NCBI RefSeq assembly: GCF_020515625.1
Contig: NZ_JAIWPJ010000002.1
Location: forward strand, 186,001-250,000
DNA from: Natrinema amylolyticum
Lineage (GTDB): Archaea; Halobacteriota; Halobacteria; Halobacteriales; Natrialbaceae
Direction of reading: 5' to 3'
DNA: 64,000 nt
The notes below the pieces were generated by a model. The model had not been told where the DNA came from and made no database searches. It saw nothing but the letters and a program-made list of their open reading frames with translations. Shown here one piece after another: positions 26,947-64,000 of the stretch. Every line of letters begins with the position of its first letter. The stretch's first letter is position 1. Both the position numbers and the translations under genes were made by a program.

Positions 26947-28377
26947 TCAGGCGTCGGTCTCGTTGTCGTCAGTCGTGACCTCGAGGTCGTCACCCTCGTC
27001 CGACTCGGTTATCTCGTCGTCCGACTCGTTCGCTTCGGTCATCTCGTCGTCCGACTCCATCGTCGCGTTCTCGCTACTGATGTCCTCGAGTTCGCTCGCG
27101 TCACCGAGCGTGAGCGTGTCACTGGTCGCGTTCTCGATGGTGATCGACGATGCGGAGAGGTTGGAGATGGTCTCACCGGAGCCGGCATCGCTCTCGGAGT
27201 CCATCTCGTCGGTTTCCGTCACGTTCGATTCCGTTTCGTCGTCCGAATCGGTGACCTCGAGATCGTCGCTTTCGTTCGTCGCGTCATCTTCTTCGTCGGT
27301 GATCTCGAGGTCCGTGCTCTCGTTTTCGGTCGCGTTTTCGTCGGCGTCCATGCCGGCGCTGTCATCCGCTTCCTCGACCGAGTCGACGCTCATCGATTCG
27401 ATCGTGACCTCGTCGACGTCGAACTGTTCGATCGTGAGTTCCTCGATCTCCTGGGACTCGTTTTCGGTCTCGGTCGACTCGTTGTCTGCCATCTCAGTCG
27501 ACTCGTTGTCCTCGTCGGTGATCTCGACCTCGTCACCGTCGTCCGTCTCGTTGTCCTGGCTCTCGGTGACCTCGAGGTCGTCGTCCTCGGCCGTCTCGTT
27601 GTCCGCTTCGTCAGTGATCTCGAGGTCGGCACTCTCGTTGTCGGCCGACTCGTTGTCGGCCATCTCGGAGTCACCAGCGTCCTCACCGGCGGTCAGCTCT
27701 TCGATGGTCAGCGTCTGGACGTCCATCGTCTCGACGGTCAGGTTGTGAATCGTGACCTCGCTGGCGTTCTCGTCGATCAGCGATTCGTTGTCGCTGGTAC
27801 TCTCGTTGTCCGTCGCAGTGTCGTTCTCTCCGTCTTCGACCTCGATGTCGGTTTCCGTCTCATTTTCACCGTCGTCCGACTCGTTCATCTCCGCGCCGGG
27901 GGACTCCGTCCGCTCCACGTGGTCCGACGCGTTGTCTCCGCCGTCACGCTCGAGGTCCTCGAGCGAGACGCCCTCGAGCTCGAGCTCCTCGAGTTGGATG
28001 TCGGAGAGGGTCACTTCCTCGCTGCTCTCGTTGGACTCGGTGCTCTCGGTGTCAGTTTCGTTCTCCTCGGTGGCGTCGACACCGCTCTCGGTGTCCGTCG
28101 CGGACTCGTTGCCGTCGAGTTCGTCCTGGAGCGCCTGCACGTCCGCGTCGAACTCCTCGACGTTCAGCTCCTCGATCGTCGCGTTCTCGACGGTGACGTT
28201 ATCGAGTTCGAGTGTGCTGACCTGTACGTTCTCGAGCGTTGCGCTCGATTCCGATTCGCCCATGTCTCCGGCGTCGTCGCCCGCGGCCCCTGTCGCACCG
28301 GCGAGGGCGGGACCCCCCGAGAGTGCGACCAGTAGCGCGACGAAGACGACGCCGATTTTCTGCGGTCGTGAAACCAT
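26947..28377 (-). CDS. secreted acidic, sequon-dense modular protein (copy 1)
   Basis: A 476-residue protein of no family I recognise. A Sec-type signal peptide spans residues 1-27. Five modules of about 25-33 residues are conserved with the paralog at 59966: 46-78 (TLENVQVSTLELDNVTVENA), 121-142, 203-230, 308-336 and 401-432. They alternate hydrophobic and polar residues with a rough five-residue period, suggesting a beta-solenoid. Linkers are Asp/Glu/Ser/Asn/Thr-rich with about 29 Asn-x-Ser/Thr sites, so heavy AglB N-glycosylation is expected. It has no transmembrane anchor, lipobox or PGF-CTERM tail. A TTTTAGCCC promoter element sits 29 bases upstream, as in the paralog. Confidence 0.82.
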   Translation of the reverse strand: MVSRPQKIGVVFVALLVALSGGPALAGATGAAGDDAGDMGESESSATLENVQVSTLELDNVTVENATIEELNVEEFDADVQALQDELDGNESATDTESGVDATEENETDTESTESNESSEEVTLSDIQLEELELEGVSLEDLERDGGDNASDHVERTESPGAEMNESDDGENETETDIEVEDGENDTATDNESTSDNESLIDENASEVTIHNLTVETMDVQTLTIEELTAGEDAGDSEMADNESADNESADLEITDEADNETAEDDDLEVTESQDNETDDGDEVEITDEDNESTEMADNESTETENESQEIEELTIEQFDVDEVTIESMSVDSVEEADDSAGMDADENATENESTDLEITDEEDDATNESDDLEVTDSDDETESNVTETDEMDSESDAGSGETISNLSASSITIENATSDTLTLGDASELEDISSENATMESDDEMTEANESDDEITESDEGDDLEVTTDDNETDA

Positions 28378-28719
28378 GCGCTCTCGTCTACCCCCGGAAC
28401 CGGGCTAAAACGATGTGACTGTTACAGAATTGCCTCGGAGAAAATCGGTGTTAGAACCGCGCAACGGTCTCTAATCTCCGATTCATCTATCCAGACCGAT
28501 GACGATCACAGAAGTCAATGAAAATTCATTTCTGCGCTGGGTGATCGCCCGTCGCGGGAGGCGGCTATCGTGTTCGCGACCGCCGAGAGCACATCGTCGA
28601 CCGAGACGGGATCGTTCCCCGCTCGCTCGCGATTCCGTCGGCTATCGGTGTCCGGACGGTCGACCTGCCACCGGTCGAAAACCGTCACGACTTACGTCCG
28701 ACGGTCCAACCCTCGAGCA
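28378..28719. other. gap between the secreted protein gene and tgtA
   Basis: There is no convincing gene in these 342 bases. The left end holds the copy-1 secreted protein promoter (minus-strand TTTTAGC near 28406). An open frame runs into tgtA from 28570, but its composition (Ser/Arg-rich) is unlike a protein, so I treat it as untranslated leader or promoter. Confidence 0.5.
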
Positions 28720-31330: not shown

Positions 31331-33334
31331 TTACTCGCGTCGTCGGAGGACGAGCGTCGTCAACAGTCCGGCGATCGCAGCGAGCCCGACACCGAGCCCG
31401 AAGCCGGGAACGCTATCGGAGTCGTCCTCGCCCTCCTCTTCTTCCGCACTTGCCGCGTCGAGACCGAGATAGTTTCGCATGCCGTCAGTGTCGACCTCCG
31501 GGAACTCTTCGTCCCAGTCGCCGGCCTCGTGGACGGTCGTCTCGGAATCGACCACGCTGAGGTGTTCGATATCGGACTTGCTCGCCGACGCGGTATCGAC
31601 GTCACCCATGTCGTCGACGTAGACGTACGTGGACGTGGTGTTGTCGGTGGTTTCGGTCGCGACGCCGCTAATGCCAACGGTGTCGCTGAACGTTTCGGTG
31701 ACCTTGCTCATGTCCTCGAACTTCGCTCCCGCTTCGACTCGAACCGAGTCGCTGGTGATATCGCCGTCGATCCGGGCGACCTCGAGGTCGGATTCGGAGA
31801 GCGCCGTGAGGAACTGCTCGGTCTCCGCGTCCGTCGACCCCGTCGGGCCGCTCTGGGCGGACTGGGCCATCGCGTCGATCGCCTGTCCGGCCAGATCCTC
31901 GCCGTCGATCTCGAACTGTCCGTCGACCGCGAGCTGGTCACCGTCGGTTTCGGCCGTCAGACTGAACGTAACGTCGTTCGGCGTCTCGATGTCGTTCGCC
32001 TCGAGTTCGGCGATATACGCTTCCCAGTTTTCCGTGTCGCTCGTGAGCTCGGCGTCGAGTTCGAGCTCGTTGGAGGACGTCTGCTCGACCGAGGCGTCCC
32101 ACTGGATGTCCCACGTGAGGTCGGCCGCCTGCTGTGCCTCGATCGCCGCGCGGGCGTTCTCGATGTCTTCCTGCGGGATCTCACCGCTCATGTCGCTCGA
32201 CTCGGCCACGTCGAGCATCGCGAGCGTGAGTTCGTCGTAGTTCGCGAGTGCGATCTCCCACTCGACATTGACCGCACCGTCGCTCTCGCTCATCGTGAAC
32301 TCGAAGGTCTCGATCTCGAGTTCAGTGACGCTCGCCGCAACGTCCTCAGCTTCCGCCTGACTCATGTCCGTCGACTGGTCGTTCGCCAGGGCGGCCGCGA
32401 GCTGCTGTTCGATACCGGCGTCGATCCCGGTGTATTCGACGGTAAAGTCGAGCGTGAGTCGGTGTTGACCGGAGGATCGCTCCTCGAACTCGTACTCGGA
32501 GATCTGGATGTCGCTCGTCCCACCCATCTGCATCGCGATCATACCGTACTGCTCTTGCAGTGTCTGTTCGGCCGCTTCTCGAGTTTCCCACCGATCCGCC
32601 TCCCAGTCGGAGACGTCCTGTTCCTGGGCCATGTCGAGGGTATAGCCGTCACTCGTGTCCTCGAGGGAGATCTCCATAGACGTTCCGTCACCGGCCGCAA
32701 TCGTCGGGTCCTCGGCGGAGACGGTGCCGGCCGTCTCGAGCCTATCGGCCGAGGCGGTCACGTGCCCGTCGGTGGTGACCTCACCGGTGGACGCGGAATC
32801 GCTCTCGAAGGTCCCGGTCGCGGTCGCATCGAACTGGTTCGTCTCGTCGGAGACTTCACCGGAGACGTCGACGGAGAGGTCCGTGACCTCGTCCGGCTGT
32901 TGCATGACGAGGGAGCCGTTACCGGAGAACCCCTGCTGGTCGAGGATCGCCGAGAAGCTTCCCTCCTCGAACTCTTCGCCTTCGAACTCGTCCTCGATAT
33001 CGTCGGCGACCAGCATGTAGACCAGTCCTTCACTGGCGTTCATGCCTAGGTCGAGCTGGTTGACGTCCGATTCATCGTCATAGCGGAGGACGGCAGTGCC
33101 GTCATCGTTGAGGTAGACCTCGTCAGCCGGATCGAGGTCCGATTCGGCCTGCGAGATCGTCTCGTACGATTCGACAGATCCCTCCGTCGCTTCGGCGGTC
33201 GTCGTCGAACCGCCGTAGATGGCCGGCAGTCCGATCGTCGCTACACCGACGGCTGCAACGAGAAGAACGACGAGAAATGCTCTCGTGCCGTTCTTCAGGC
33301 GCCGTCTCGAGTCTGGTTTTCGGTCCGATGGCAT
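31331..33334 (-). CDS. surface protein with PGF-CTERM anchor
   Basis: A 667-residue exported protein. It has a basic N-terminus and a hydrophobic signal segment (residues about 18-40), a long acidic beta-rich ectodomain containing repeated 'D.SVDVSGEVSDE / TFESDSASTGEV' strands, and a tripartite PGF-CTERM tail at about 642-667: PGFGLGVGL, a hydrophobic helix, then RRRE. The tail should be processed by archaeosortase ArtA and replaced by a lipid. The ectodomain is unlike any family I recognise. The gene is convergent with the TRAM gene and divergent from arcS. Confidence 0.85.
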   Translation of the reverse strand: MPSDRKPDSRRRLKNGTRAFLVVLLVAAVGVATIGLPAIYGGSTTTAEATEGSVESYETISQAESDLDPADEVYLNDDGTAVLRYDDESDVNQLDLGMNASEGLVYMLVADDIEDEFEGEEFEEGSFSAILDQQGFSGNGSLVMQQPDEVTDLSVDVSGEVSDETNQFDATATGTFESDSASTGEVTTDGHVTASADRLETAGTVSAEDPTIAAGDGTSMEISLEDTSDGYTLDMAQEQDVSDWEADRWETREAAEQTLQEQYGMIAMQMGGTSDIQISEYEFEERSSGQHRLTLDFTVEYTGIDAGIEQQLAAALANDQSTDMSQAEAEDVAASVTELEIETFEFTMSESDGAVNVEWEIALANYDELTLAMLDVAESSDMSGEIPQEDIENARAAIEAQQAADLTWDIQWDASVEQTSSNELELDAELTSDTENWEAYIAELEANDIETPNDVTFSLTAETDGDQLAVDGQFEIDGEDLAGQAIDAMAQSAQSGPTGSTDAETEQFLTALSESDLEVARIDGDITSDSVRVEAGAKFEDMSKVTETFSDTVGISGVATETTDNTTSTYVYVDDMGDVDTASASKSDIEHLSVVDSETTVHEAGDWDEEFPEVDTDGMRNYLGLDAASAEEEEGEDDSDSVPGFGLGVGLAAIAGLLTTLVLRRRE

Positions 33335-59570: not shown

Positions 59571-59965
59571 CGGAACGGAACCGGCTTTCGACGCCGTTCT
59601 CGAGCGACTGCGTCGGCGATCGACCGGTAGTGACGACCGTACGCCGGGCCGCCGTCACGGAAACGGCCTCGGCCGTCCGCACGCTTCTCCCGTTTCGTCA
59701 CGGAAATCGCTGCTTTGCGCGGTAACGGATCGCTGAGGATGGATAGACGCGTCTCACGGCCCTGTGCGACCGTGTGATGGAGTAGCTGTGCTATCGGCAC
59801 ATCGTCTCCGCCCGGTACCGTCACTGGCCGAGGGTTTTCGTCGAACAAGGGACGATCGAATCGGCCGTAACCGATCGCTCCCGTGCCCGAAACATCGGTT
59901 TTCTCCGCGGTAATTCCGTAACAGTCGGCCTGTTTTAGCCCCGCGACGACCCTACGTCGGCGCGT
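59571..59965. other. gap before secreted protein copy 2
   Basis: No protein-like frame found in these 395 bases on either strand. The right end has TGTTTTAGCCCC (59931-59942), the promoter of the next gene, closely matching that of its paralog at 28377. The left part may hold transcript ends of the zinc-ribbon gene. Confidence 0.5.
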
Positions 59966-61015
59966 ATGGTTTCACGACCGCGAACGATCGGCGTCGCTTT
60001 CGTCGCGCTGTTGGTCCTGCTCTCGGGGGGTCCCGCCCTCGTCGGTGGAGCGACCACGAACACAGCCGTGGACGACGCCGGAGACATGGGCGACACGAGC
60101 GCAACGCTCGAGAACGTACAGGTTGGCACACTCGAACTCGAAAACCTCACCGTCGAGAACGCCACGATCGAGGAACTTACCGTCCAGCAACTGGATATTC
60201 AGGGCGGTGACGAGCTCCAGCAGCAACTGAACGAGAGCGAATCGAACGAATCCGCGGCCAACGAGTCCGCGGCCAATCAGACCTCGGAGGAGGTCGTGAT
60301 CTCGGACGTCGCGTTCGAATCGCTCGCGCTCGGGAACGTCTCGATCGAAGACCTCGGCGGTGCAAACGCGACCGACAACGAGAGCACCGACGGAGAGAAC
60401 GCGTCGTCGGGCCTCCAGGACGTGATCGACGAGGACGCCGACAACGTGACGGTACAGAACATGACGATCGAGACGATGAACGCCGATCGGCTGGCGATCG
60501 AGGACCTCACCGTCGACGACAGCGGCGGCGGAATCCTCTCGGGAATCTCCGACTTCATCGGTGGATTGTTCGGCGGCGACGGCGGTGACGATGGCGGCCA
60601 GAACGCGACCGACGAGAACGCCAGCAGCCAGGAGATCGAGTCGCTCACCATCGAAGAGTTCGACGTCGGCGATCTCACGTTCGAATCCATGACCGTCGGA
60701 AGCATCGAGACGCAGGCCGGGAACGAAACGGCCGCCAACGAGACGGGTGCCAATGCGACCGACAATGAGACGGGCACTGATGCGATCGACAACGAGACGT
60801 CGATGAACGAAACAGCGATGAACGAAACGGCGACGGGCGAGACGATCTCGTCGGTCGACGCGGGTTCGATCACCGTCGAGAACAGCTCCGCTCAGACCGT
60901 CACCCTCGGCGAAACCCAGGGACTGCAGGAATCGCTGCAGCAATCCCAAGGGAACGAAACTGCGACCGAATCGAACGCGACTGACGATACCAACGAAACC
61001 AACGAGACGGAGTGA
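59966..61015 (+). CDS. secreted acidic, sequon-dense modular protein (copy 2)
   Basis: A 349-residue paralog of the 26947 protein, sharing the signal peptide nearly residue for residue (MVSRP..IGV.FVALLV.LS). It has the same five modules at 46-78, 108-130, 155-183, 221-250 and 291-322; for example SQEIESLTIEEFDV and GETISSVDAGSITVENS. Linkers hold 26 Asn-x-Ser/Thr sites, with runs of NET and NES. Between modules C and D a Gly-rich hydrophobic stretch (GGILSGISDFIGGLFGGDGG) may contact membrane or partners. No anchor is visible. It ends four sequons before the stop. Confidence 0.83.
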   Translation: MVSRPRTIGVAFVALLVLLSGGPALVGGATTNTAVDDAGDMGDTSATLENVQVGTLELENLTVENATIEELTVQQLDIQGGDELQQQLNESESNESAANESAANQTSEEVVISDVAFESLALGNVSIEDLGGANATDNESTDGENASSGLQDVIDEDADNVTVQNMTIETMNADRLAIEDLTVDDSGGGILSGISDFIGGLFGGDGGDDGGQNATDENASSQEIESLTIEEFDVGDLTFESMTVGSIETQAGNETAANETGANATDNETGTDAIDNETSMNETAMNETATGETISSVDAGSITVENSSAQTVTLGETQGLQESLQQSQGNETATESNATDDTNETNETE

Positions 61016-63500: not shown

Positions 63501-63854
63501 CTATTCGCTTTCGTTGCTCTCGTTGCTTTCGTTGGACTCGTTCATCTCGGTCTCGTTCATCTCGGTCTCGTTGGACTCGTTCGTTTCGTTCGTCTCGGTC
63601 TCGTTCTCGCCGCCGATATCGGTCTCGTTCGTCTCGTTTTCGGTTCCGACGTCGGTTTCGTTATCACCGGCCGGCTCGTCTTCGATGTCTTGCCCGTTGC
63701 CGGTTCCCTCCTCGGCTTCGGTCTCGTCGTCTTCCTCGGTCCCGTTTTCTCCGCCGCCACCTGGGCCGCCACAGCCGGCGACGAGTGCAGTCGAGGCCGC
63801 TGCGCCTGTTAGTTTCAGCACTCGTCGACGGGTCGACGGCTGTCGATCACTCAT
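63501..63854 (-). CDS. lipoprotein with Asn-Glu-Ser/Thr repeat tail
   Basis: A 117-residue exported protein. The twin-arginine-type start (STRRRVLKLTGAAASTALVA) ends in lipobox VAGC, followed by GGPGGGG and an acidic tail that decays into NES/NET repeats (NETEMNETEMNESNESNESN) to the end, giving 13 Asn-x-Ser/Thr sequons. It has no globular domain. It probably forms a glycosylated, flexible surface brush anchored by lipid. ATG 63854 is supported by a TATA-like TTATGC about 28 bases upstream. Related in composition, not homology, to the two modular secreted proteins. Confidence 0.85.
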   Translation of the reverse strand: MSDRQPSTRRRVLKLTGAAASTALVAGCGGPGGGGENGTEEDDETEAEEGTGNGQDIEDEPAGDNETDVGTENETNETDIGGENETETNETNESNETEMNETEMNESNESNESNESE

Positions 63855-64000
63855 ACGGAGGTAGTCGGTATCGAGGTGCATAAGCCGTCAGCCGACACTT
63901 GCGTGGTCTCTGGCGCTCTCAGCCCCGAATCCGCTCGTCTGCAGGCGATCGGGTCCGGCGACCTCGAGATCGGTCAATCATAGCGGGTGTAGGCATCACG

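Follow-up and report, generated by a model that had tools for sequence, protein, structure and literature searches.

What kind of protein is encoded by the open reading frame at positions 26947-28377 of the window, the 64,000-nucleotide stretch of Natrinema amylolyticum DNA analyzed here? An earlier note on this DNA had proposed a new family of secreted proteins that form a glycan-coated extracellular fibre or matrix, in which five solenoid-like modules are kept while the acidic linkers between them evolve freely. The reading frame is confirmed (476 aa) and is located on the minus strand, which that note had not stated. Its product, referred to as P1, and the product of a second gene, referred to as P2, are members of an unnamed haloarchaeal family. 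The N-terminus of P1, MVSRPQKIGVVFVALLVALSGGPALAGA, resembles a Sec signal peptide on inspection, in agreement with the original proposal, and the N-terminus of P2 is also Sec-like by inspection. Both proteins contain the five modules (A-E) in the same order, and the limits that profile HMMs assign to them (Table 1) differ by four residues or fewer from those first given. When the signal is disregarded, the net charge is -170 for P1 and -72 for P2, as compared to a median of -158 and a lowest value of -360 in the family, and the median Lys plus Arg content of the family is 0. The hydrophobic GGGILSGISDFIGGLFGG segment of P2 is shared by many relatives (a similar motif is present in 59 of 119 family proteins), and low-confidence AlphaFold models render it as a helix.

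Table 1. Features of the two paralogous genes and their upstream regions, in window coordinates.
Feature	Coordinates	Strand	Remarks
P1 gene	26947..28377	minus	476 aa; hyperacidic, five modules, signal-like start; family members in 124/392 genomes of the order
P1 acidic tail, residues 435-476	26950..27075	minus	read from translation
P1 module E, residues 401-434	27076..27177	minus	profile HMM; large and small (Ala/Ser) inward positions alternate
P1 linker D-E, residues 338-400	27178..27366	minus	between HMM-defined modules
P1 module D, residues 308-337	27367..27456	minus	profile HMM
P1 linker C-D, residues 233-307	27457..27681	minus	between HMM-defined modules
P1 module C, residues 205-232	27682..27765	minus	profile HMM
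P1 linker B-C, residues 145-204	27766..27945	minus	between HMM-defined modules
P1 module B, residues 120-144	27946..28020	minus	profile HMM
P1 linker A-B, residues 78-119	28021..28146	minus	between HMM-defined modules
P1 module A, residues 45-77	28147..28245	minus	profile HMM; ~6 pentads
P1 signal-peptide-like start, residues 1-27	28297..28377	minus	judged by inspection
P1 promoter-like element GTAACAGTC-N5-GTTTTAGCC	28403..28425	minus	conservation reaches ~28441
P2 promoter-like element, P1 pattern	59918..59940	plus	conserved stretch 59902-59940
P2 paralog gene	59966..61015	plus	349 aa; same five modules, same order as P1
P2 module A, residues 45-77	60098..60196	plus	profile HMM
P2 module B, residues 108-131	60287..60358	plus	profile HMM
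P2 module C, residues 158-185	60437..60520	plus	profile HMM
P2 hydrophobic segment GGGILSGISDFIGGLFGG	60524..60577	plus	lies between C and D; P1 has none
P2 module D, residues 221-250	60626..60715	plus	profile HMM
P2 module E, residues 291-323	60836..60934	plus	profile HMM

The claim that the family is new holds up, as intact P1 and P2 have no Pfam, NCBIfam or PHROG match above noise. None of the papers searched was found to describe it, searches of IMG/VR and of plasmids returned no relatives, and a whole-family profile found no match in the PDB. Every one of the 29 genomes of the window's genus has relatives, and a profile search detected them in 124 of the 392 genomes sampled from its order, mostly within the window's own taxonomic family. 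The module order A-B-C-D-E that had been read from two genes recurs in other genomes and is identical in 119 of 119 complete, non-redundant members that fit the family model; as the module HMMs were built from the family itself, the fixed order applies to members of this type. Nine other open reading frames that were scored comprise one truncated form, one 815-residue form and, from other families of the order, divergent relatives with weak module scores. The 815-residue member (locus L077, 3660-6107, minus strand) has module matches A-B-C-D-D-E, the extra one being D-like. Four relatives from other families of the order (L047, L048, L128 and L131) are larger, with additional sequence C-terminal to the modules; in L128 and L131 this part has only weak Pfam matches (BatD, HAS-barrel and A2M), and the linkers of L047 are of an EETTE type. 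Among the 119 complete members, the standard deviation of module length is 0.7-1.9 residues, as compared to 16-27 residues for the linkers, which range from 16 to 188 residues. P1 and its closest relative are 94% identical in the modules and 73% in the linkers, and the corresponding values for its comparison with genome G022 are 91% and 47%. Modules are therefore kept in order and length while linkers diverge faster, as had been suspected.

The arrangement of the two genes has its own history. In most relatives one or two family copies are flanked by tgtA and a NUDIX gene, and in Haloterrigena salina the paralogs are in tandem, in the order tgtA(-) P1(+) P2(+) NUDIX(-). In the window P1 adjoins tgtA and P2 adjoins the NUDIX gene, in opposite orientations; the 31-kb separation reported earlier is thus correct, although the pair is tandem in relatives. 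Because flipping the intervening segment, including P1, gives back the tandem order, the best explanation for the 31-kb gap is that the segment between once-tandem paralogs was inverted (window 26775-59965), probably in an ancestral member of the genus. A search of the genus made with P2 detected P1 in 8 of its 29 genomes, which suggests that P1 was lost later. The same block encodes a secreted 667-residue protein with a PGF-type C-terminal sorting signal (31331-33334, minus strand), adjoining tgtA and an ArcS-like gene.

Each paralog has the same promoter-like element upstream of its start codon, and in most family genes the distance from its first base to the ATG is 48-49 nt. A degenerate form is present upstream of 111 of 119 family genes, at 47-49 nt in 94; most of the others are accounted for by the script's choice of start codon, and a few genes differ by some bases or lack the element. 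A TTTTAG located ~30 nt upstream of the ATG would be suitably placed for the TATA box of a leaderless transcript. When up to three mismatches are allowed, the element occurs in the whole 4.71-Mb genome only upstream of P1 and P2. In 101 genomes of the window's family, zero to two matches per genome are obtained with at most two mismatches, and those compared by eye with the loci from the protein search lie ~26 nt upstream of a family gene. A promoter-like element limited to these genes is a defined target for work on regulation.

Which fold, then, is conserved in the modules? In the family consensus each module consists of approximately five phi-x-phi-x-x pentads of the form [LVM]-T-[IVL]-E-[EDNS]. 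The five-residue alternation of hydrophobic and polar residues described in the earlier note exceeds chance in modules A-D of both proteins, where shuffling gives p = 5e-5 to 1e-4 for each 2.5/5-residue periodicity, whereas in module E it is weak and not significant (p = 0.26 in P1 and 0.07 in P2, by shuffling) because some inward positions are occupied by Ala or Ser. With the linkers removed, the top match of both proteins is Pentapeptide_4, at E 2.2e-5 and 24.8 bits for P2 (the curated Pfam cut-off is 38) and at E 2.7e-4, also below the curated cut-off, for P1. Four shuffled copies of the linker-less proteins gave no Pentapeptide_4 match; as these controls destroy the period and joining the modules imposes the register, the match reflects a pentapeptide-like pattern and is not proof of register across the linkers. 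Unaltered distant relatives also match Pentapeptide_4 (E 1.9e-4 to 0.022). In another family of the order (L048, L129, L130 and L131) the long A-B linker is absent and 12-13 pentads follow one another in register, and in L128, from a further family, module B continues into C. The A-B stretch of L131 has the best pentapeptide profile score (26.7 bits; cut-off 38), and in the PDB it retrieves mainly pentapeptide-repeat chains, weakly (E of at least 0.03). When the register is followed over the linkers from one module to the next in the 119 proteins, it is uniform modulo 5, as it would be for loops. Taken together, the matches of the linker-less proteins, the fused modules of relatives and the modulo-5 register suggest a single pentapeptide-type helix into which loops are inserted, and a pentapeptide-like beta-helix is the likeliest fold of the modules. 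AlphaFold models, computed with few sequences in the alignment, have a mean pLDDT of 41.5 and a pTM of 0.19 for P2, and of 49.7 and 0.31 for its C-D fragment, values too low for the models to reveal such a helix; strands appear in C and D and are local only, and a Foldseek search with the low-confidence C-D model yielded nothing usable. Mean-field coevolution over 119 sequences is noisy, with some D-E pairs among the top scores.

We consider it about an even chance that P1 and P2 are secreted anionic proteins in which one pentapeptide-type beta-helix is interrupted by hyperacidic loops that form a brush. In such proteins, exported from the cell in extremely acidic form, modules A-E would be consecutive pieces of a single helix of ~26 pentads, corresponding to roughly six coils if one coil takes four pentads. 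Four long, presumably disordered loops and the tail would interrupt this helix and bear most of the charge and sequons; the helix would be a rigid, probably compact core, and the loops would make up a hydrated, negatively charged brush on the outside of the cell. The hydrophilicity of the brush would come from Asp and Glu alone, or from Asp and Glu together with presumed N-glycans, depending on the species. For the protein as a whole, the role that we judge most likely is that of a hydrated polyanionic brush at the surface or in a matrix. If this is right, the family presents a beta-solenoid that is split by loops exceeding its pieces in length, a natural case of a rigid core with a polyanionic brush.

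Alternatively, the modules could be beads on a string, separate short beta elements that assemble between molecules or on the surface of a partner, with the linkers spacing an extended fibre or matrix. We regard this as unlikely: the modules do lie 16-188 linker residues apart and the low-confidence models give only local strands, in C and D, but the number and order of modules are constant, whereas a free array would differ in copy number, and relatives fuse adjacent modules in register. The module count is five in every complete member that fits the model, a constancy that is easier to reconcile with one closed fold than with a polymer or free array, and the fibre originally envisaged is not borne out.

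A single interrupted helix would leave the question of what its loops carry. P1 contains exactly 29 N-x-S/T sites, as had been estimated, though five of them are within modules; 300 composition shuffles give an expectation of 6.6 and a maximum of 15, and 29 of the 31 Asn residues sit in sequons. The sites are not copies of one unit, since they occur in 19 different 9-mers and their serines are encoded by both TCN and AGY codons. The share of linker Asn that belongs to a sequon has a bimodal distribution over the 119 proteins, being at least 0.8 in 67 and at most 0.1 (usually zero) in 45. Dividing the set at a fraction of 0.6 with at least 8 Asn gives 68 sequon-rich proteins and 51 others; forward and reversed motifs number 1613 versus 322 in the former and 56 versus 13 in the latter, and Asp plus Glu account for 0.33 and 0.59 of residues, respectively, falling to ~0.2 in sequon-rich P2 proteins. 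The sequon state mostly agrees between paralogs of one genome, and several genera contain both states.

That the linkers exist to bear N-glycans, as the earlier note held, appears less probable still than a string of separate elements. The 67 members in which sequons take in 80% or more of the linker Asn, the excess of forward over reversed motifs (1613 to 322) and the presence of AglB all speak for it, but in 45 of 119 members this share is 10% or less despite AglB, and genome G022, in which both P1 and P2 are sequon-rich, gave weak paralogous matches and none above the cut-off of the haloarchaeal AglB model. A glycan coat is thus tenable for the sequon-rich part of the family and fails as a property of the whole, which does not have the sequon-dense linkers throughout that mark an N-glycosylated mucin-like protein. 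Presence or absence of AglB was considered as the cause of the two states and rejected, as 59 of the 60 genomes have an AglB-like match, which in 57 exceeds the family cut-off, and these include sequon-rich and sequon-poor ones alike.

A tree of AglB from 30 genomes implies seven changes of sequon state, at least six of them on supported branches. AglB itself contains 5-16 sequons in rich genomes and 1-6 in poor ones (loci L136-L165), and rich genomes also exceed poor ones within each of the four genera compared; approximately five of six independent pairs agree and none disagree (p = 0.06, from few pairs). Genome G263, counted as rich, is intermediate, with 13 of 24 linker Asn in sequons. Closely spaced NE[S/T] sites have a median of 14.5 per genome in rich and 3.5 in poor genomes, in a count that ignores relatedness and takes in the family's own genes (2 of 31 sites in the window's genome). 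In the exported proteome, 400-kb samples of four genomes, which are small and crude, gave no clear sequon difference. As the sequon state is bimodal, switches and tracks the sequons of AglB, the packing of sequons looks to be a habit of the species, which the loops follow, rather than a property of the family. Tentatively, the loops may report a species-level N-glycosylation switch that tracks AglB sequons and spaced NE[S/T] sites, with species of one genus alternating between sequon-packed and polyacidic loops, and with carboxylates and N-glycans being interchangeable for anionic extracellular loops. The repeated gain and loss of sequons in one scaffold, with the oligosaccharyltransferase kept, provides a comparative system for the roles of archaeal N-glycans. 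A small lipoprotein-like open reading frame nearby (63501-63881, minus strand) has an acidic tail packed with NES and NET and is likewise sequon-packed and exported.

The least probable reading is a cation- or mineral-binding matrix protein, in which the acidic loops would take up Ca2+ or Mg2+ and connect the cell surface or exopolymer: the net charge reaches -360 and some sequon-poor members have acidic DDDDNGVD-like repeats, but no conserved metal-binding motif was recognized, the loop sequences are poorly conserved, and Asp plus Glu make up only ~0.2 of the sequon-rich P2 proteins.

Among known systems, the proposed interrupted helix is closest in build to the pentapeptide-repeat proteins (PF00805, PF13599 and PF13576), right-handed quadrilateral beta-helices that by definition contain at least eight contiguous repeats and have the consensus [STAV][DN][LF][STR][G] (PMC8145042). 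The window proteins share the period of five and the hydrophobic i-2 and i positions, and there are sub-threshold profile matches to PF13599 and PF13576. However, their pentads are in five short runs of ~5-6 with long acidic linkers between them (12-13 contiguous pentads occur only in relatives of other families), and the repeat with inward i-2 and i is evident in modules A-D and not significant in E. Their consensus also differs, with a large L/V/M at i-2, T/E/D at i-1, I/V/L at i, E/D at i+1 and E/D/N/S at i+2, and shows no Asp/Asn-Leu/Phe-Gly preference. The best scores, 26.7 bits for the L131 A-B stretch and 24.8 for linker-less P2, remain below the curated cut-off of 38. As defining features of such proteins are lacking, we describe the window genes as built like pentapeptide-repeat proteins and do not file them as members. 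The luminal domain of SV2 (PF23894) is an extracytoplasmic, N-glycosylated pentapeptide beta-helix of ~five coils (PMC8145042). It has a core of similar size that is likewise outside the cytoplasm, and distant relatives of the family match it weakly (E 0.005-0.022), but it is without long acidic loops between coils and is part of an animal membrane protein; the likeness is one of build and does not imply common ancestry. Acidic low-complexity exported haloarchaeal proteins, namely PGF-CTERM proteins and lipoproteins, have a similar signal-like start, acidity and, in some species, sequons. On inspection, P1 and P2 show no PGF-CTERM, C-terminal membrane segment or lipobox cysteine (they have no Cys and polar C-termini), and the family is set apart from these proteins by the five pentad modules that form its framework.
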